Part shown: positions 1 to 7,048 of the stretch, one piece after another | How the letters are laid out: every line of letters begins with the position of its first letter | Numbering within the stretch: the first letter of the stretch is position 1 | Origin: Rhizomicrobium sp. | GTDB lineage: Bacteria; Pseudomonadota; Alphaproteobacteria; Micropepsales; Micropepsaceae | Direction: 5' to 3' | Assembly: GCA_025451875.1 (NCBI GenBank) | Contig: JANWJQ010000131.1 | Coordinates: 1-37,241 of the forward strand | DNA: 37,241 nucleotides | The notes under the pieces: generated by a model | What the model was told of the DNA's origin: nothing | Seen by the model: only the letters and a program-made list of their open reading frames with translations | Databases searched by the model: none | Position numbers and translations under genes: made by a program

Positions 1-1125
1 ACACCGGCCAACGATCAATATGCGACGCCCGCGCTCGGCCTCGGCGGCAATGCGGCGTTGCTCGGCAGCTTCGGCCATTTCCGCTGGGAAGCGGGCGGCG
101 ATCTTCGCGTGGATAGCGGCGAGTCGCGCGAATTCTACGCCTTCAATGGAACGGACTTCTCGAACAGGCGCCGCTCCGGCGGCATGATGACCGTCGGCGG
201 CGCATATGGCGAAGGCGCTTATGATGATGGCGCGTGGCTGGTCACGCTCGGCTTGCGGTTTGACTATTGGGCAACGGCACAAGGTCATCTCGTCCAGACG
301 GTGCGCGCCACCGACGCCGTTTTGCTCGACACCGACTACAAGGGCCGCGAAGGCACGGTGCCCACGGGTCGCTTCGGTGCGCGGCGCAATTTCGCCGACC
401 AGTATCTGCGCGTCGCAGCCTATGAAGGCTTCCGCGCGCCAAGTTTGAATGAGCTCTATCGCCCGTTCCGCGTCGGAAACAACAATACGGTGGCGAATGC
501 CGCGTTGAAGCCCGAGAAGCTCTACGGCGCCGAAATCGGTTGGGGCGGCGCTTTGCGCGACGTGACATGGAACATGACCGCGTTCTGGAACAATCTGCAC
601 GATGCCATCGCCAATGTGACCATCGCGTCGTCACTCGCAGGCGTGACATTCCAACGGGAAAATGCGGGCGATGTTAAGGCGCTGGGTCTTGAAGGCGATG
701 CCGCGTGGCGCGTGGCCGACGATCTCACCATGCGAACGGCCTTCTCCATCACCGACGCACGCGTGCATGAGAATCCGTCTGCCATTCCGCCGGGCCAGCC
801 ATCACTCACCGGCAATCGCCCCGCACAAGCGCCGCCGGTCACCATCACGGGCGGAGTCACGTGGCTGCCGTTCGAGAAGCTGTCACTCGATGCAAACTTG
901 CGTTGGGAAAGCGCGCGTTTCGAGGACGACCGGAACACAATGCGCCTGGGCTCCGCCTTCGTGCTGGATGTGAAGGCGTCCTATCGCCTGCTGGAATCGC
1001 TTTCCGCCTTCGTTGCCGTGGACAACGCAACGAATACCGATATCGCCACGGCACAGGCCGCAGATGGCACGATCAGCTACGGCCAGCCAAGAATGTATGA
1101 CGTGGGTTTGACCTATCAGCCCTAA
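1..1125 (+). CDS. TonB-dependent receptor, C-terminal part (5' truncated by window edge)
   Basis: The reading frame is open from base 1, so the gene begins upstream and only the last 374 codons are present. The fragment has the alternating short beta-strand character of an outer-membrane 22-stranded barrel. It carries the receptor-family signature GFRAPSLNELY near residue 144 of the fragment, then NAALKPEK and YGAEIGW, which match the usual 'NP.L.PE...G.E.G' strand. Receptors of this family take up siderophores, cobalamin or other ligands using TonB energy. The plug domain and TonB box that would narrow the substrate lie outside the window. The last residues are YQP rather than the aromatic residue commonly found at the end of barrel proteins. 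Its stop overlaps the stop of the convergent acyl-CoA dehydrogenase gene. Confidence 0.88.
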   Translation, partial: TPANDQYATPALGLGGNAALLGSFGHFRWEAGGDLRVDSGESREFYAFNGTDFSNRRRSGGMMTVGGAYGEGAYDDGAWLVTLGLRFDYWATAQGHLVQTVRATDAVLLDTDYKGREGTVPTGRFGARRNFADQYLRVAAYEGFRAPSLNELYRPFRVGNNNTVANAALKPEKLYGAEIGWGGALRDVTWNMTAFWNNLHDAIANVTIASSLAGVTFQRENAGDVKALGLEGDAAWRVADDLTMRTAFSITDARVHENPSAIPPGQPSLTGNRPAQAPPVTITGGVTWLPFEKLSLDANLRWESARFEDDRNTMRLGSAFVLDVKASYRLLESLSAFVAVDNATNTDIATAQAADGTISYGQPRMYDVGLTYQP

Positions 1126-2270
1126 CGCAAGCCCAAATCCCGCGCGATGATCCCGCGCAGGATTTCGCGCGTGCCGCCACGCAGGCTGAACGATGGCGCG
1201 GTCTGCAGCAGATAGGTCAGCACATCGGTGAAGGGATTGCTCACCGACAGATCGACCTCGTCGCGCGCGATGCTCTGAATCTCTTTCGGCATCGCCTGTT
1301 CCAGCGTGGTGCCGATGTCTTTCACGATGGATGCGGCGACAGCAGGTGATTTTCCGGCCTGCAACTCGCCCGTTACCGACAGCGACATCTGCCGCAAGGT
1401 CCACATCTCCGCCGTCATGCGGCCGATGAGCAGGCGTTCGGCTTCGGTCGGATTGTCGCCAACCATGCGCAAGAATTCGAGGAAGAGGCGCAACGACGAC
1501 AGATAGCGCTCCGGTCCGCTGCGCTCGAACGCCAGTTCCGCGCCGACCTGCATCCAGCCATCGCCGGGGCGTCCCACCACCATGCCGGCTGGCACGAACA
1601 CGTCGTCGAAGAACACTTCGTTGAAATGCGTGTTGCCCGCCATGTCCTCGATGGGACGAACGGTCAGGCCTTTGCTGTTCTTCACGTCGATGACCATCTG
1701 GGTCAGGCCGGTGTGGCGCGTCTCGCCTTCGCTGGTGCGCACCAACGCGATCATGTAGTCCGCGTGATGCGCGCCGGAGGTCCAGATCTTCTGGCCGTTC
1801 ACATACCAGCCGCCATTGCCTTCGCGCGCTCGCGTGCGCACCGACGCCAGATCGCTGCCGGAGTTGGGTTCGCTCATGCCGATGCAGAAGCAAAGCTCGC
1901 CCTTGGCGATGCGCGGCAGGAATTTCTGGCGCTGTTCTTCGGTGCCGAAACGCAGCATCAGCGGCCCACTCTGGCGATCCGCCACCCAATGCGAACTCAC
2001 CGGTGCGCCGGCCGCGAGCAATTCCTCCAGCACGACATAGCGCTCGGCATAGGATCGCTCATGGCCGCCATATTTCCTGGGCCATGTCATGCCGATCCAG
2101 CCCTTCGCGCCGAGCGCGCGGGAGAAGTCCTGCCCGTAGCCGCTCCACGACAAAGCGCGCTTCTTGGATGGCATGTCCTTGAGCTGGTCTTTCAGGAAGG
2201 CGCGCACCTCTCCGCGAAGCGCCTCGGCTTCGGGCGGAAGGTCATAGGGATCGAAAGCAAATTGCGGCAT
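1122..2270 (-). CDS. Acyl-CoA dehydrogenase family protein
   Basis: The 382-aa product is a full-length FAD flavoenzyme that would oxidise an acyl-CoA to the 2-enoyl-CoA. An N-terminal helical domain (about 1-120) is followed by the beta-barrel FAD segment CFCIGMSEPNSGSDLAS (about 127-143) and KIWTSGAHHA (161-170), then the C-terminal helical domain ending RGGTREILRGIIARDLG. At the place of the medium-chain enzyme's catalytic Glu (YEGT motif) this protein has R364-G365-G366-T367. A glutamate instead occurs at residue 249 (LAFERSGP), which lines up with the base of isovaleryl- and long-chain enzymes. It is therefore probably active, on a branched or otherwise unusual substrate. The gene stands alone between the receptor (convergent, stops overlapping) and the cfa-like gene. 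Confidence 0.9.
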   Translation of the reverse strand: MPQFAFDPYDLPPEAEALRGEVRAFLKDQLKDMPSKKRALSWSGYGQDFSRALGAKGWIGMTWPRKYGGHERSYAERYVVLEELLAAGAPVSSHWVADRQSGPLMLRFGTEEQRQKFLPRIAKGELCFCIGMSEPNSGSDLASVRTRAREGNGGWYVNGQKIWTSGAHHADYMIALVRTSEGETRHTGLTQMVIDVKNSKGLTVRPIEDMAGNTHFNEVFFDDVFVPAGMVVGRPGDGWMQVGAELAFERSGPERYLSSLRLFLEFLRMVGDNPTEAERLLIGRMTAEMWTLRQMSLSVTGELQAGKSPAVAASIVKDIGTTLEQAMPKEIQSIARDEVDLSVSNPFTDVLTYLLQTAPSFSLRGGTREILRGIIARDLGLR

Positions 2271-2307: not shown

Positions 2308-3540
2308 TCAGACGCGCGTCAGGCGGAATTGTCCCACGTCGATGTTTCCGGCGCGGAAGCTTCCTTCGCAGGACGCGAGGTAGTAATCCCACATGCGCTT
2401 GAAGCGCTCGTCGAAGCCCAGCGGCTGGATCGTCTCCCAGCGTGCATCGAACACTTCGCGCCAGCGCCGCAGCGTTTCCGCGTAGGAAAGGCCGAAGGTG
2501 CGCGCGGTCTCGAAACCGAGCCCCTGTTTCGTCACCGCATCTTTCAATGCAGATGGCGAGGGCAGCATACCACCCGGAAAGATGTAGAGCTGGATGAAAT
2601 CAGCTTGGCGGCGATAAAGATCGAAGCGCTGGTCTTCGATAGTGATGATCTGCAGCGCGGCGACGCCGCCCGGCTTCAGCCGGTCGCGTATGGTCTTGAA
2701 ATAAGCCGGCCAATGTTCCTCACCCACCGCCTCGAACATCTCGATGGAGACGATGCGGTCATAAGAACCCTGCACGTCGCGATAGTCGATGAGCTGGAAA
2801 TCCAGCAGGTGAGACAGCTGCGCTTCCTCAGCCGCCCTTCTGGCAAAGGCGAGCTGTTCGGTGGACAGTGTGATGCCGGTGACCTTGCAGCCATATTCGC
2901 GCGCCGCGAACATCGCGAACCCGCCCCAGCCGCAGCCGATCTCCAGAATGTGCAGGCCTTCGCGCAGATCCAGCATGTCCGCCAGCTTGCGCCATTTGTT
3001 GCGCTGCGCGTCTTCGAGTTTCTGGTCCGGGCTGTCGAATACCGCGGAGGAATAGGTCATCGTGGGATCGAGCCATTGCGAATAGAACGCGTTGCCCAGA
3101 TCGTAATGCGCCGCGATGTTCTTGCGGCTGCCCTTGCGCGTGTTGCCGCGCAGCTTGTGGGTGACCATGCGCGCCCATTCCAGCGGCGCGATGCCGGTCA
3201 ACGTGTCGGCCAGCCGGTTCATGTTGCGCGCGCCGAACTCGAACACCGATGCGAGATCGGGGCTCGACCAGTCGCCATCCATGTAGGATTCCGCAAGGCC
3301 GATCTCACCGCCCAAAAGCAGCCGCCGGAAGCTGCGGGCGCGGGCGATTTCGAGAACTGCTTTCGCGCCATGCTGCGCGGCCTTGATGGTGCGCTCGGCG
3401 CCGTTGGTGAAGCGAAGGACGACTTCGCCTTCCGCGATGTCGCTCACGGCGCGGGCCATCATGTTGCCCCACAGCGGCGGGCGGACGAGTCTGCTCGCCG
3501 CAGGCGAATGGCTTTTCTGTTCGTCACCCATGTCGCTCAC
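2308..3540 (-). CDS. cfa: Cyclopropane-fatty-acid-synthase-like SAM methyltransferase
   Basis: The 410-aa product is a soluble SAM-dependent methyltransferase acting on double bonds of membrane phospholipid acyl chains. Visible motifs: HYDLGNAFYSQWLD (about 146-159), the SAM loop ILEIGCGWGGFAMFAA (about 194-209), SIEMFEAVGEEHW, FIQLYIFPGGMLPS and the C-terminal active-site segment CEGSFRAGNIDVGQFRLT. The start is GTG at 3540, overlapping the TGA of the DUF1365 gene as GTGA, which indicates translational coupling. It is the third gene of a flavoprotein > DUF1365 > methyltransferase operon facing away from rpoE-chrR. In Rhodobacter sphaeroides related genes belong to the singlet-oxygen RpoE regulon, and some Cfa-family members make methylated acyl chains (furan fatty acid precursors) rather than cyclopropanes. 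The exact product here cannot be read from sequence. Confidence 0.9.
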   Translation of the reverse strand: MSDMGDEQKSHSPAASRLVRPPLWGNMMARAVSDIAEGEVVLRFTNGAERTIKAAQHGAKAVLEIARARSFRRLLLGGEIGLAESYMDGDWSSPDLASVFEFGARNMNRLADTLTGIAPLEWARMVTHKLRGNTRKGSRKNIAAHYDLGNAFYSQWLDPTMTYSSAVFDSPDQKLEDAQRNKWRKLADMLDLREGLHILEIGCGWGGFAMFAAREYGCKVTGITLSTEQLAFARRAAEEAQLSHLLDFQLIDYRDVQGSYDRIVSIEMFEAVGEEHWPAYFKTIRDRLKPGGVAALQIITIEDQRFDLYRRQADFIQLYIFPGGMLPSPSALKDAVTKQGLGFETARTFGLSYAETLRRWREVFDARWETIQPLGFDERFKRMWDYYLASCEGSFRAGNIDVGQFRLTRV

Positions 3541-4277
3541 AACCCCGCAGGTGTCGGTCTTTTAATGTGAGCATGAGAGGGCACGCGCTTCAACCAGAGA
3601 CGCACGGCCTCGAAGTGAATAGCCGCGACAATTTTAAGCGTCATCAACGGATGGCGGAGCACGGCCACGGCAAGGTTCCCATCGCTAAGTGTCTGTCTTG
3701 TCCCCGAAAACGCCGCGTTCAGCACCGGGTTCCCGCCTTCGCTCTCGCGAATGGCTATCAGCACCCGTTCGCCCGGCTGTTCGATGCGGAACTGGTAGGC
3801 GCAATCCATCGACAGGAAGGGCGAGACGTAGAAGTCCTTGTCGCAGGTCTGGTTGAGGGTATTGCCGTTCGCCATGGCGGGCAGGACATAAGTGTGGCGT
3901 TCGCCGAAAGTGTTGTGAACCTCGTAGATCACGGCGGCGAGTGTTTCGTCGGCGCGCCGGCAGAACCAGACGGATAGCGGGTTGAACACGAAGCCCCAGA
4001 GCCGCGGATAGCACAGCACTTCGATGCGCCCATCCGCTTGGATATTCGCATCGGACAGCTTCGCCTTTACCCATTCGCGCAGTGGGCGTCCGTCACCATG
4101 GTCCCCGTCGTGAAAGCTGACGATGCCGCGCTTGTTATGCGCGAACAGGCGCGAGCGCTTGGCGAAGGCGTCGATCTTGTCGAGATCGAGAAGTAAAGAG
4201 AACACGCGATAGCGGAAGGAATGGCGCGTGGGCGATATCCGCGTGTGAGTCACAAAGCCATTGTAAATGGCGTTCAT
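3537..4277 (-). CDS. DUF1365 family protein (COG3496), lipid-stress operon
   Basis: The product is 246 aa if translation starts at 4277, where ATG overlaps the upstream TGA as ATGA; a longer in-frame start at 4340 would lie inside the flavoprotein gene and is unlikely. The start reads MNAIYNGFVTHTR, typical of the family. Further signatures are HSFRYRVFSLLLDLD, GYRIG-like blocks around VLCYPRLWGFVFNPLSVWFC (split here by eye) and FGERHTYVLP. DUF1365 proteins have no established biochemical activity. They almost always sit between a COG2907 flavoprotein and a Cfa-like methyltransferase, so a role in modifying unsaturated acyl chains is inferred. In Rhodobacter, genes of this type are reported to be needed for ChrR turnover after singlet oxygen. 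Coupling at both ends implies fixed stoichiometry with its neighbours. Confidence 0.87.
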   Translation of the reverse strand: MNAIYNGFVTHTRISPTRHSFRYRVFSLLLDLDKIDAFAKRSRLFAHNKRGIVSFHDGDHGDGRPLREWVKAKLSDANIQADGRIEVLCYPRLWGFVFNPLSVWFCRRADETLAAVIYEVHNTFGERHTYVLPAMANGNTLNQTCDKDFYVSPFLSMDCAYQFRIEQPGERVLIAIRESEGGNPVLNAAFSGTRQTLSDGNLAVAVLRHPLMTLKIVAAIHFEAVRLWLKRVPSHAHIKRPTPAGL

Positions 4278-5638
4278 ACCGGAATGCCCGCCAGCTGGGG
4301 TATCCGCACAATGCGGCCCGACTCTTTCGCCACGCGCCATGGCCGCCTTGAGCCGGTCGCATCTTCGGCGGCGGCGAGGCCGGACTGCAGCGCATCCTCA
4401 TGGAAGCCCGAGCCGAAATAGCTGCCGCAGAACCAGGTGTTGCGAACGCCCTGCAGATGCCAGAGCCGCTGCTGCGCCTCCAGTGCCGCGGAATTGAACA
4501 GCGGGTGTGCATAGTGATCGACCCGGTAGATGGTGTCTTCACGCGGCATTTCCCGCGGATTAAGCGTGTTGAACAATTGTGCGGGGCTATCGATGTTCTG
4601 GAGCTTGTTCATCCAATAGGTGACGCACAAATCATCGTTGGGCTTGTCGCTGGTATGGCCGAGATAGTTCCAACTCGCCCAGGCCATCCGGCGTTTGGGC
4701 ATGAAGTTCGGATCGCAATGCAGTACCGCCTTGTTCGGCCGGTATTGAAAGCAGCCCAGCAGGCTGTGTTCTTCCGGGCTCGCATCGCCCAGCATGGCGA
4801 GCGCCTGATCGGCGTGCGCAGCGATGATCACGCCGTCATAGCGTGCGCTCTCGCCGTCATCATCGACAATAGTGACGCCGGTCGCGTCACGCAGGATTGC
4901 TTTTACACCACAGCGAAGGCGAATGCGGTCGGCATAATGCGCCGTGAGCTTCCTCACATATTCCTGCGATCCACCGCTGACCGTGCGCCATTGCGGCCGG
5001 TTTATGAGCTTGAGCAAGCCGTGATCGGCGAAGAAGCGCGCAAACGCCGCGACGGGATGCGCGCGCATGTCTTCGAGCGAGGACGACCAGATCGCCGCCG
5101 CCATCGGCAGCAGATGAAAGCGCGCGAAGGCTTCGGAATAGCCATGCGTATCCAGATAGGCGCCCAGCGTGGTGCGGGTATCGCCGGCGTCCATCGTCTG
5201 CGCCGCCTCGCGATAGAAGCGCACCAGATCGCGCCACATTCTCAGATAGTCGCCGCGCAGGAAATTCCGCGGCTGGGCCATTAGCCCGGCAATCAGGCTT
5301 GAATATTCCAGCGCGCCTTTGTCCAGCGACACGCCGAACGTCATTTCGCTCTTCTCAGTCTTCACGCCGAGATGGTCAAACAGCGCCGTGAGATTGGGAT
5401 AGGTCTGTTCGTTATAAACGATGAAACCGGTATCGACCGGGATGCGCCCTCCCGGTGTTTCGACATTGACGGTGTGCGAGTGTCCGCCCACGCGCAATTC
5501 GCGCTCATAGACGGTCACATCGTGGTTGCTCGACGCCAGCCAGGCGGCGGACATGCCGGAAATACCGGTTCCCACAATCGCGAAATGCCTCTTGTCGGAG
5601 ACAGGCTTGCCGGACGGGGTCGCATAGAGGGCGTGCAA
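4274..5638 (-). CDS. FAD/NAD(P)-binding oxidoreductase, COG2907 flavin amine-oxidase-like
   Basis: The 454-aa product has an N-terminal Rossmann FAD motif IVGTGISGMSAAW (G23, G25, G28), a glutamate at the end of strand 2 (VYERE, about residue 45) and the second dinucleotide segment GGHSHT. This is the amine-oxidase/phytoene-desaturase fold. No signal peptide is evident, so it is probably cytoplasmic or membrane-associated. The start is TTG at 5638: the frame is closed by TAG at 5666-5668 and no ATG or GTG lies between. The proposed sigma-E-type promoter would then give a leader of roughly 18 nt. It heads the three-gene operon. In the Rhodobacter furan fatty acid pathway a flavoprotein of this operon type is thought to desaturate methylated acyl chains; carrying that over is inference. 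Confidence 0.88.
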   Translation of the reverse strand: MHALYATPSGKPVSDKRHFAIVGTGISGMSAAWLASSNHDVTVYERELRVGGHSHTVNVETPGGRIPVDTGFIVYNEQTYPNLTALFDHLGVKTEKSEMTFGVSLDKGALEYSSLIAGLMAQPRNFLRGDYLRMWRDLVRFYREAAQTMDAGDTRTTLGAYLDTHGYSEAFARFHLLPMAAAIWSSSLEDMRAHPVAAFARFFADHGLLKLINRPQWRTVSGGSQEYVRKLTAHYADRIRLRCGVKAILRDATGVTIVDDDGESARYDGVIIAAHADQALAMLGDASPEEHSLLGCFQYRPNKAVLHCDPNFMPKRRMAWASWNYLGHTSDKPNDDLCVTYWMNKLQNIDSPAQLFNTLNPREMPREDTIYRVDHYAHPLFNSAALEAQQRLWHLQGVRNTWFCGSYFGSGFHEDALQSGLAAAEDATGSRRPWRVAKESGRIVRIPQLAGIPV

Positions 5639-5662
5639 GGGCGGGTTCCATGTTGAACATAC

Positions 5663-5692
5663 TGCCTACGCCGGCCAGCGGCTGCTGGATCA
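5663..5692 (-). promoter_or_regulatory. Putative ECF11 (RpoE) promoter for the flavoprotein operon
   Basis: Read on the minus strand, TGATCC occupies 5692-5687, an 18-nt spacer follows, and the -10 begins TAGGCA at 5668-5663. The -35 hexamer and 18-nt spacing match what I recall of the RpoE consensus of Rhodobacter sphaeroides (TGATCC, about 18 nt, TAAGA-like). The -10 is imperfect. A start near 5656 would leave a leader of about 18 nt before the TTG start at 5638. Confidence 0.6.
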
Positions 5693-5703
5693 GAAAATCT
5701 GGG

Positions 5704-5732
5704 TGATCCGGAATCGCACCGCTCGCGTAAAA
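5704..5732 (+). promoter_or_regulatory. Putative ECF11 (RpoE) autoregulatory promoter for rpoE-chrR
   Basis: TGATCC at 5704-5709 is followed by exactly 18 nt and then TAAAA at 5728-5732. It mirrors the divergent site: the two -35 elements are separated by only 11 bp (5693-5703). Transcription from about 5739 would give a leader of about 105 nt before the chosen rpoE start at 5844. ECF genes commonly autoregulate. Confidence 0.68.
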
Positions 5733-5843
5733 CTGTCTATGATGGCGCATGTTCAGCCCATTGCCGCACTTCGGCTCATTGATCCCTCCTGGCGCCGAAA
5801 GGCGAGGGCGGGTGTGCGCCGTCATGCTTTTCAACCGGCTCGG

Positions 5844-6410
5844 ATGACAGATCCCAAATCTGAACAACGGACCGACATGACAGCATTGCTCGCTACGCTT
5901 GCCGCGAAGCGTGATCGCGCTGCGTTTGAGATTCTTTTTGTTCATTTCGCGCCGCGGGTGAAAAGCTATTTGTTGCGCCTGGGTGCGAGTGCCGCGCTTG
6001 CCGACGATCTGGCGCAGGAAGCGATGCTAACGATGTGGCGCAAGGCGGAACTGTTCGATCCCGCCAAAGCGTCGGCATCGACCTGGGTGTTTACCATCGC
6101 CCGCAATCTGCGCATCGATGCGATCCGCCGCGAACGCCGCCCCGAATTCGACCCCAACGATCCGGCCTTTGTGCCAGACGATGAGCCGCAAGCCGACGCT
6201 CGCATGGTGCGTGAAGGCGAAGATGCCCGGTTGCGTGCGGCGCTAACGAAACTTTCAGCCGATCAGGCGCAAGTCATCCAGATGTCCTTCTTCTCCGAAA
6301 AGCCCCACAGCCAGATTGCCCGCGAGCTCGGTCTTCCGCTGGGCACCGTGAAATCCCGGCTGCGGCTGGCGATGGCGCGCATCAAAGGCGCATTGGGCGG
6401 TGAGGCATGA
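5844..6410 (+). CDS. rpoE: ECF sigma factor, RpoE/ECF11 type
   Basis: The product is 188 aa from the ATG at 5844. The frame is open back to 5703, but the promoter at 5704-5732 makes upstream starts implausible, and MTDPKSEQ matches the usual beginning of this group; ATG at 5877 is an alternative. Region 2 is visible as FAPRVKSYLLRLG, LADDLAQEAMLTMWRKA and ASTWVFTIARNLRIDAIRRE. Region 4 is LSADQAQVIQMSFF, HSQIARELGLPLGTVKSRL. The protein directs RNA polymerase to stress promoters. Its 3' end overlaps chrR by ATGA, so sigma and anti-sigma are translated together. By analogy with Rhodobacter it would respond to singlet oxygen or related oxidants; the inducing signal in this organism is inferred. 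Confidence 0.93.
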   Translation: MTDPKSEQRTDMTALLATLAAKRDRAAFEILFVHFAPRVKSYLLRLGASAALADDLAQEAMLTMWRKAELFDPAKASASTWVFTIARNLRIDAIRRERRPEFDPNDPAFVPDDEPQADARMVREGEDARLRAALTKLSADQAQVIQMSFFSEKPHSQIARELGLPLGTVKSRLRLAMARIKGALGGEA

Positions 6411-7048
6411 CGATCCTGCATCATCCTGGCGACGAATTGCTGTTGAGCTACGCGGCAGGGGCGACCGACGAAGCAATGTCACTGGTTTTGGCCACGCATC
6501 TGGCGCTTTGTCCGCAATGCCGCCGTACGGTCGCGGAAGCGGAGGCCGCGGGGGGGGCCATTCTGGAGGGCGACAGGCCGGTACTGTTGAGCGATGGCGC
6601 GTTGCAGTCCGTTCTTTCCCGTCTCGACACAGCGCCCACCGCGAAGTCTGCCGCGCCACTTGGGGCGTTCACGGCACCGGAACCACTGCGATCCTATCTC
6701 GGCGGCGATCTGGACAGCGTAAAATGGACCAATCTCGCCGGCGGGATTTATTTCAAGCCGTTATTTCAGCGTGGAAAGTCACGGTCCTATCTCATTCGCT
6801 CAAAGGCGGGATGTGGCGTGGGCTGGCATACGCATCATGGCGAAGAGCTGACGCTCTGCTTGGCCGGTGGGTATACCGACGAAACGGGCCAATATGCGCG
6901 TGGTGATCTACAAAGCACCACGCCGGACATTTTGCACCGTCCGGTTGCCGATGAAGGCGAAGACTGCATCGTTCTCGCCATGAGCGATGCACGGTTGAAA
7001 TTCAGCAGCCCCATTGTGGCTTTGATCGGCCGCTGGTTCGGGTTTTAG
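6407..7048 (+). CDS. chrR: ChrR-type zinc anti-sigma factor with C-terminal cupin
   Basis: The 213-aa product has an N-terminal zinc anti-sigma domain with H6, H31, C35 and C38 (HLALCPQC) and a C-terminal cupin domain. The cupin metal ligands appear as H141, H143, E147 and H177 (GWHTHHGEEL; ILHRP). As I recall the Rhodobacter sphaeroides ChrR structure, both zinc sites use the same residue numbers, so the two proteins appear colinear. The N-terminal domain should hold the sigma factor inactive and the cupin domain is needed for release during singlet-oxygen stress. The gene overlaps rpoE by 4 bp (ATGA), the standard arrangement. Identification is firm; the signal sensed is inferred from the family. 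Confidence 0.95.
   Translation: MTILHHPGDELLLSYAAGATDEAMSLVLATHLALCPQCRRTVAEAEAAGGAILEGDRPVLLSDGALQSVLSRLDTAPTAKSAAPLGAFTAPEPLRSYLGGDLDSVKWTNLAGGIYFKPLFQRGKSRSYLIRSKAGCGVGWHTHHGEELTLCLAGGYTDETGQYARGDLQSTTPDILHRPVADEGEDCIVLAMSDARLKFSSPIVALIGRWFGF

Follow-up and report, generated by a model that had tools for sequence, protein, structure and literature searches.

Predicted divergent ECF11 promoters between rpoE-chrR and a furan-lipid operon in Rhizomicrobium sp., and a probable leaderless start of rpoE

What does a stress sigma factor control from the short region between its own gene and a divergent lipid-modification operon, and where does its own protein begin? We address this for a 37,241-nucleotide stretch of DNA from the alphaproteobacterium Rhizomicrobium sp. 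(GCA_025451875.1, contig JANWJQ010000131.1, positions 1 to 37,241; hereafter the window), in which the genes for an RpoE-type extracytoplasmic function (ECF) sigma factor and its anti-sigma factor ChrR lie back to back with a flavoprotein-DUF1365-Cfa (ufa) operon. The sequence makes it very probable that an alphaproteobacterial stress module of the ECF11 (RpoE-ChrR) type is controlled from this region, with one sigma factor reading both promoters. The initial annotation had described two opposed TGATCC elements 11 bp apart, each followed after 18 nt by TA, and a motif scan confirmed these coordinates (TA at 5728-5729 on the plus strand and at 5668-5667 on the minus strand). The -35 elements point outward from the gap between them (5693-5703), and positions 5663-5732 cover both -10 regions. 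On both sides the fuller -10 is CGTA, so that each promoter reads TGATCC-N16-CGTA, a longer pattern than TGATCC-N18-TA and the consensus given for the Pseudomonas syringae RpoE-ChrR system (PMC5507510).

The back-to-back pair is unexpected by chance. When the 205-bp intergenic region (5639-5843) was shuffled 20,000 times with its dinucleotide content preserved, the plus-strand element arose 18 times, the minus-strand element 28 times and both together never; for TGATCC-N16-CGTA the corresponding counts were 2, 2 and 0. TGATCC itself is ordinary in the window (27 occurrences against 24.2 expected), and TGATCC-N17..19-TA occurs three times against 1.11 expected, with at least three in 7 of 100 shuffles. 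The draft genome (2.98 Mb, 81.6% complete) holds 92 matches to the loose motif, 41 forward and 51 reverse, among which we saw no second closely spaced opposite pair. The motif is this common, and a lone loose match would say little. An Rfam search of the window returned no match.

The two elements follow the gene neighbourhood in relatives. A class sample was built from the 116 TIGR02451 matches present in 109 of the 289 class genomes; 16 were left out (the window's own match and 15 that were weak, partial, second matches or close to the end of a contig), and of the 100 loci taken, 85 had an adjoining RpoE by tblastn and the 15 without an RpoE match were dropped. Searching for exact TGATCY-N16-CGTA, we found that, of 30 loci with a divergent ufaD, 27 had an element facing rpoE, 25 one facing ufaD and 22 both (28, 27 and 25 when a single -35 mismatch was allowed). 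The 53 loci lacking a divergent ufa gene carried the rpoE-side element in 32 cases but never the opposite-strand, ufa-side element (once with a mismatch), and in two further loci the neighbour was ufaM or ufaO. Within a narrower region the contrast between the two groups was 21/30 versus 0/53 (Fisher p 5.8e-13). Shuffling each of the 30 divergent-ufaD regions 200 times never produced the pair, and when spacers of 13-19 before CGTA were tried, matches appeared essentially at 16 only. A second, named-genome set found by UfaD similarity comprised 80 loci, 78 of them usable (two had too little upstream DNA): 66 with a divergent rpoE carried the rpoE element in 56 and the ufaD element in 44, and the ufaD element was still present in 4 of the 12 without one. 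Pooling the class, named and genus samples, with identical RpoE removed (five rows) and without L242, L248 and L252, which duplicate G140, the window and G239, both elements were found in 78 of 110 unique divergent loci. The predicted RpoE-ufa promoter arrangement is common in Alphaproteobacteria, and motif, gene neighbourhood and conservation strongly support the earlier proposal that the two TGATCC elements would drive rpoE-chrR and the flavoprotein-DUF1365-Cfa operon.

The geometry of the pair is less distinctive than its presence. Identical 18-nt spacing had been singled out by the initial annotation; it is present, yet it is the sigma factor's invariant spacer and so not special to this pair, and ECF factors in general need a fixed spacer (PMC6411747). 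The 11-bp separation was rejected as a conserved geometry: over 78 pairs the -35 to -35 distance runs from 1 to 115 bp, with a median of 23.5 and 14 pairs at 6 bp or less. Since the sigma factor fixes the spacer while the gap drifts, 11 bp and equal spacers mark no special device. One could still suppose that at close -35 elements holoenzymes exclude each other and the promoters compete, which would be a variant of the explanation preferred here and not an alternative to it. The 11-bp gap of the window and gaps of 1-6 bp in 14/78 pairs would suit such competition, but the gap is unconstrained and helical phasing across the 78 pairs was not significant (Rayleigh p ~0.06), and we regard the idea as tentative and somewhat unlikely. 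In the genus sample the first divergent gene is either ufaD or ufaO and the pair is kept either way; in seven loci with ufaO first (L230, L233, L236, L238, L241, L245 and L251) the -35 elements lie exactly 6 bp apart. In L112 (G140) ufaD is inverted, a back-to-back pair with a 3-bp gap stands between ufaD and a minus-strand gene, and rpoE has a separate element.

A second feature of the rpoE side concerns where translation begins. ATG 5739 lies 10 nt past the A of CGTA, with in-frame alternatives at ATG 5742, 5844 and 5877. If the A of CGTA is -9, a numbering we infer from the T-9 of a SigH structure (PMC6411747), the ATG falls at +1 or +2. The rpoE mRNA looks leaderless, with a predicted start at ATG 5739 and about 35 extra N-terminal residues in the window. 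Among 138 unique alphaproteobacterial loci, 91 have an RpoE-frame ATG close past the A of CGTA, at 9 nt in 34 loci and at 10 nt in 57, and none has one at these two positions in either of the other two frames. The RpoE frame contains no stop between the predicted transcription start and the RpoE core in 130/136 loci, versus 24 and 41 for the other forward frames; stops per codon in the RpoE frame are about 0.03 before the predicted +1 and 0.000-0.004 after it, and 0.026-0.079 in the other frames. In a family sampled by similarity to Rhodobacter sphaeroides ChrR (L309-L338, of which L331 and L335 are near-identical), 28 of 29 motif-bearing loci, out of 30 in total, have an ATG at 9-10 nt. Sixteen further class loci, partly redundant (L268 and L269 come from the genomes of L046 and L047, and L267 and L308 are one record), have an ATG at the predicted +1 in 12 of the 15 that bear the motif. 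All eight plasmid records taken from 72 with a match have an ATG 9-11 nt past CGTA; their own annotation uses it in two and places the start 66-147 nt past CGTA in six.

The same position was scored elsewhere. A leaderless ufaD was rejected (ATG at 9 nt in 2/69), as was a leaderless rpoE in the other classes of the phylum, where the ATG is at +1 in 1 of 13 motif-bearing loci and 16 of 29 loci have no motif. The ATG at rpoE +1 therefore does not accompany the motif in general, nor do all ECF11 systems have it. Where ufaO comes first, its own ATG is at the predicted +1 in 7/11 loci.

The competing view puts the start of RpoE translation at ATG 5844 or 5877 and takes 5739-5843 for an untranslated leader, open by chance. 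The N-terminal extension is indeed poorly conserved, alignment with the R. sphaeroides chain of PDB 2q1z_A (184 aa) begins only near the 5844 start, and the six plasmid annotations with later starts agree with it. Yet this view leaves unexplained both the frame-specific ATG and the fall in the stop rate past the predicted +1. Differences between 12 disjoint close pairs within the extension also favour third codon positions (64/58/110, p 6e-6); this excess is far weaker than in the RpoE core, a pattern as would be expected of a translated, loosely constrained stretch. Neither 5844 nor 5877 has AGGA, GGAG or GAGG at the Shine-Dalgarno position, and a short RpoE form made from internal starts with a Shine-Dalgarno sequence was rejected in general, such starts being few (17/91 loci). 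We judge an untranslated leader unlikely. R. sphaeroides itself, sought via its ChrR for a comparison of start codons, was not found (best identity 71%). We found no description of a leaderless rpoE for the ECF11 system in the literature searched, which did not extend to subscription papers, including a study of R. sphaeroides rpoE P1, so that a prior description is possible. For a different ECF factor, Bradyrhizobium japonicum ecfF, the mapped start overlaps the annotated ATG and the authors favoured a later start codon (PMC3420878).

The proposed extended RpoE has a parallel in Streptomyces coelicolor, where SigR is held by the anti-sigma factor RsrA and a self-activated promoter yields SigR', 55 residues longer and with a lifetime of about 10 min, while a separate promoter, sigRp1, makes the stable short SigR (PMC4921905). 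If the extension is confirmed, the two systems would share a zinc anti-sigma factor, an autoregulated promoter and an N-terminally extended form (PMC4921905). SigR belongs to another family than the window's sigma factor, and its short form has a mapped second promoter, sigRp1; no sigma70-like second promoter was found in 5600-5900 of the window. In the family similar to R. sphaeroides ChrR, a conserved DNA block, GGATGC(A/G)-N18-TATGnT, lies within the rpoE extension, at about 30-70 nt, and is a possible second promoter. The peptide DA-x-Y occurs in 10/27 extensions of this family, against 0.84 expected; because only GAT and TAT codons are used, a DNA element is likelier than a conserved peptide. 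We think it probable that the rpoE transcript which ECF11 activates for itself is leaderless in Alphaproteobacteria, beginning at the first codon of the sigma factor, and that the RpoE made under stress carries a fast-evolving extension of about 20-60 residues that is missing from many annotations and possibly from the protein examined to date. Under stress this form could be translated straight from an AUG at the 5' end and be short-lived, giving a SigR'-like self-limiting pulse.

Two readings would deny the pair its role as promoters. In one, GGATCA-N11-TGATCC is the inverted-repeat operator of a dimeric regulator. Inverted halves 1-6 bp apart in 14/78 pairs do look operator-like, but the distance between halves varies over 1-115 bp while CGTA keeps its exact distance outside each half, and loci lacking a ufa neighbour retain just one of the halves, which makes an operator very improbable. 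That the pair is a chance occurrence or a remnant, with one side or neither a working promoter, is hardly credible despite the near-expected counts of TGATCC in the window and of the motif in the genome, given its absence from all 20,000 shuffles, the ufa-side element in 25/30 loci with a divergent ufaD against 0/53 without a divergent ufa gene, and the nearly exclusive 16-nt spacer.

Several points nonetheless weigh against reading the region as an RpoE control centre with a leaderless rpoE. The locus of this organism is known here from sequence alone. The strict motif occurs 13 times genome-wide, near our base-count estimate of about 11, so the motif by itself does not define a regulon. A genome-wide scan had been proposed as a check; its 92 loose matches, like the motif counts within the window, are no proof of a regulon on their own. 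All 11 other strict sites overlap some open reading frame (ORF) of at least 120 aa, and just two of them (L222 and L028) also sit shortly upstream of a plausible ORF start. A reversed-pattern control gave 0 genome matches; we judged it unfair since the reversed pattern includes CTAG. Both elements are present in only 38/66 divergent loci of the named set, and in the pooled set one or both exact elements are missing from 32/110 unique divergent loci. Nor are the counts independent, as these loci are relatives picked by ChrR or UfaD similarity. For the start codon, 47/138 loci have no ATG at 9-10 nt, and the +1 position is carried over from another ECF sigma factor, SigH.

The genes on either side identify the module (Table 1). 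RpoE has the two domains of an ECF sigma factor (Sigma70_r2, 75.3 bits; r4_2, 51.9 bits), with R. sphaeroides RpoE (PDB 2q1z_A, E 3.4e-49) as its top PDB match. The adjoining ChrR has a zinc anti-sigma domain and a cupin domain (Cupin_7), and its alignment to R. sphaeroides ChrR is ungapped and includes 8/8 metal ligands from the list in PMC6852236 (H6, H31, C35, C38, H141, H143, E147 and H177 of the window protein). Together with its own TGATCC-N16-CGTA promoter, these are the features of ECF11 membership that we found. On the other side, 4-bp gene overlaps suggest that the flavin adenine dinucleotide (FAD) oxidoreductase, DUF1365 and CMAS genes form one operon, of which the acyl-CoA dehydrogenase gene on the same strand may be a further member. 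The operon is best read from sequence as encoding UfaD-UfaO-UfaM. The third gene is a putative ufaM, with a cyclopropane synthase gene as the alternative; its product is a strong CMAS match yet under the cut-off of every NCBIfam Cfa equivalog shown, in a comparison that held no UfaM sequence. A second CMAS gene lies elsewhere in the genome, at C52.

Table 1. Features of the rpoE-ufa region in window coordinates
Feature	Position	Strand	Evidence
-35 element TGATCC, predicted rpoE-chrR promoter	5704..5709	+	motif scan, shuffles
-10 core CGTA, predicted rpoE-chrR promoter	5726..5729	+	16 nt past -35; consensus TGATCC-N16-CGTA (PMC5507510)
-35 element TGATCC, predicted ufa operon promoter	5687..5692	-	motif scan, shuffles
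-10 core CGTA, predicted ufa operon promoter	5667..5670	-	motif scan, shuffles
rpoE (ECF11 sigma factor), proposed full frame of 223 aa from ATG 5739	5739..6410	+	Pfam Sigma70_r2/r4 (searched from 5844), start position, open frame in relatives
Proposed translated N-terminal extension of RpoE, 35 codons; otherwise callable a 5' leader	5739..5843	+	comparative start and frame data
chrR anti-sigma factor, overlapping rpoE by 4 bp	6407..7048	+	TIGR02451 165.7 bits (cut-off 124.5); PDB 2z2s_B, 2q1z_B
ufaD-like FAD protein (Amino_oxidase/NAD_binding_8), first in-frame start TTG 5638	4274..5638	-	Pfam search
ufaO-like DUF1365 protein, ATG 4277 overlapping the ufaD stop	3537..4277	-	PF07103 277.4 bits (searched on 3537-4340)
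CMAS/Cfa-family methyltransferase, probable ufaM, GTG start overlapping the ufaO stop	2308..3540	-	profile search
Acyl-CoA dehydrogenase, 37 bp past ufaM, putative fourth operon gene	1122..2270	-	profile search

The locus is a new instance of the known ECF11/furan-fatty-acid module; its architecture is ordinary and its layout not new. The core regulon includes rpoEchrR and furan-fatty-acid genes (PMC6852236). In R. sphaeroides (Cereibacter), RpoE-dependent promoters have been reported before both RSP_1091-1087 and rpoEchrR. There, RSP1091 is UfaD and RSP1090, a DUF1365 protein, UfaO (PMC7380195). Like the window, where they are predicted, it has divergent RpoE promoters, as well as a ChrR with identical metal ligands; unlike the window, its operon holds three other genes (RSP_1089-1087) and its ufaM lies elsewhere, at RSP2144 (PMC7380195). 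The window's three-gene order is identical to that of Rhodopseudomonas palustris RPA2571-RPA2570-RPA2569, or ufaD-ufaO-ufaM, whose introduction into a ufa triple mutant of R. sphaeroides is enough to give furan fatty acids (PMC7380195). Rhodobacter capsulatus is without such an arrangement (PMC7074977). The PSPTO_1043 regulon of P. syringae shares its promoter consensus with the window (PMC5507510), although P. syringae is a Gammaproteobacterium, and in classes of the phylum other than the window's the start codon is at +1 in only 1/13 motif-bearing loci.

Individual loci depart from this pattern. L232, L234, L250/L195 and L193 have TGATCC-N16-CGTT instead of CGTA at both promoters, and L170 and L171 at the rpoE promoter only. 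The RpoE column that differs most between CGTA and CGTT loci is the residue preceding the conserved Trp beside the specificity loop (T in 118/135 versus A in 6/7); this concerted -10 change has few independent origins and was not significant by independent pairs. In L068 (G080), chrR stands opposite ufaD-ufaO-ufaM with no sigma gene in the 234 bp between them, and an ECF11-like element faces chrR. In the window's genome, a gene for a Fasciclin-domain protein has the strict element L222 (G000:C123:17049-17074) about 60 nt upstream; among the genes listed as induced by singlet oxygen in R. sphaeroides is RSP_1409 (beta-Ig-H3/fasciclin) (PMC7074977).

Reasoning by analogy with R. sphaeroides, we propose that RpoE would transcribe rpoE-chrR from one promoter and ufaD-ufaO-ufaM from the other. 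Damage such as singlet oxygen would lead to loss of ChrR and free RpoE, at which point both promoters would fire. The Ufa proteins, acting through furan fatty acids, would help sustain ChrR turnover in a positive loop, which newly made ChrR would limit. Basal rpoE expression before stress would have to come from leakage or from another promoter, of which the window showed none.

The promoter pair confirms that RpoE is wired to the furan-lipid genes needed for its activation across many Alphaproteobacteria. The leaderless start, a result of comparison among relatives, is the part that a specialist would not expect. If it is true, a well-studied stress sigma factor has been given wrong start sites in many annotations, and constructs that begin at internal starts would miss a stretch that may set RpoE stability. 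Alphaproteobacterial ECF11 would then join SigR as a system in which the induced form of the sigma factor differs from the resting form.
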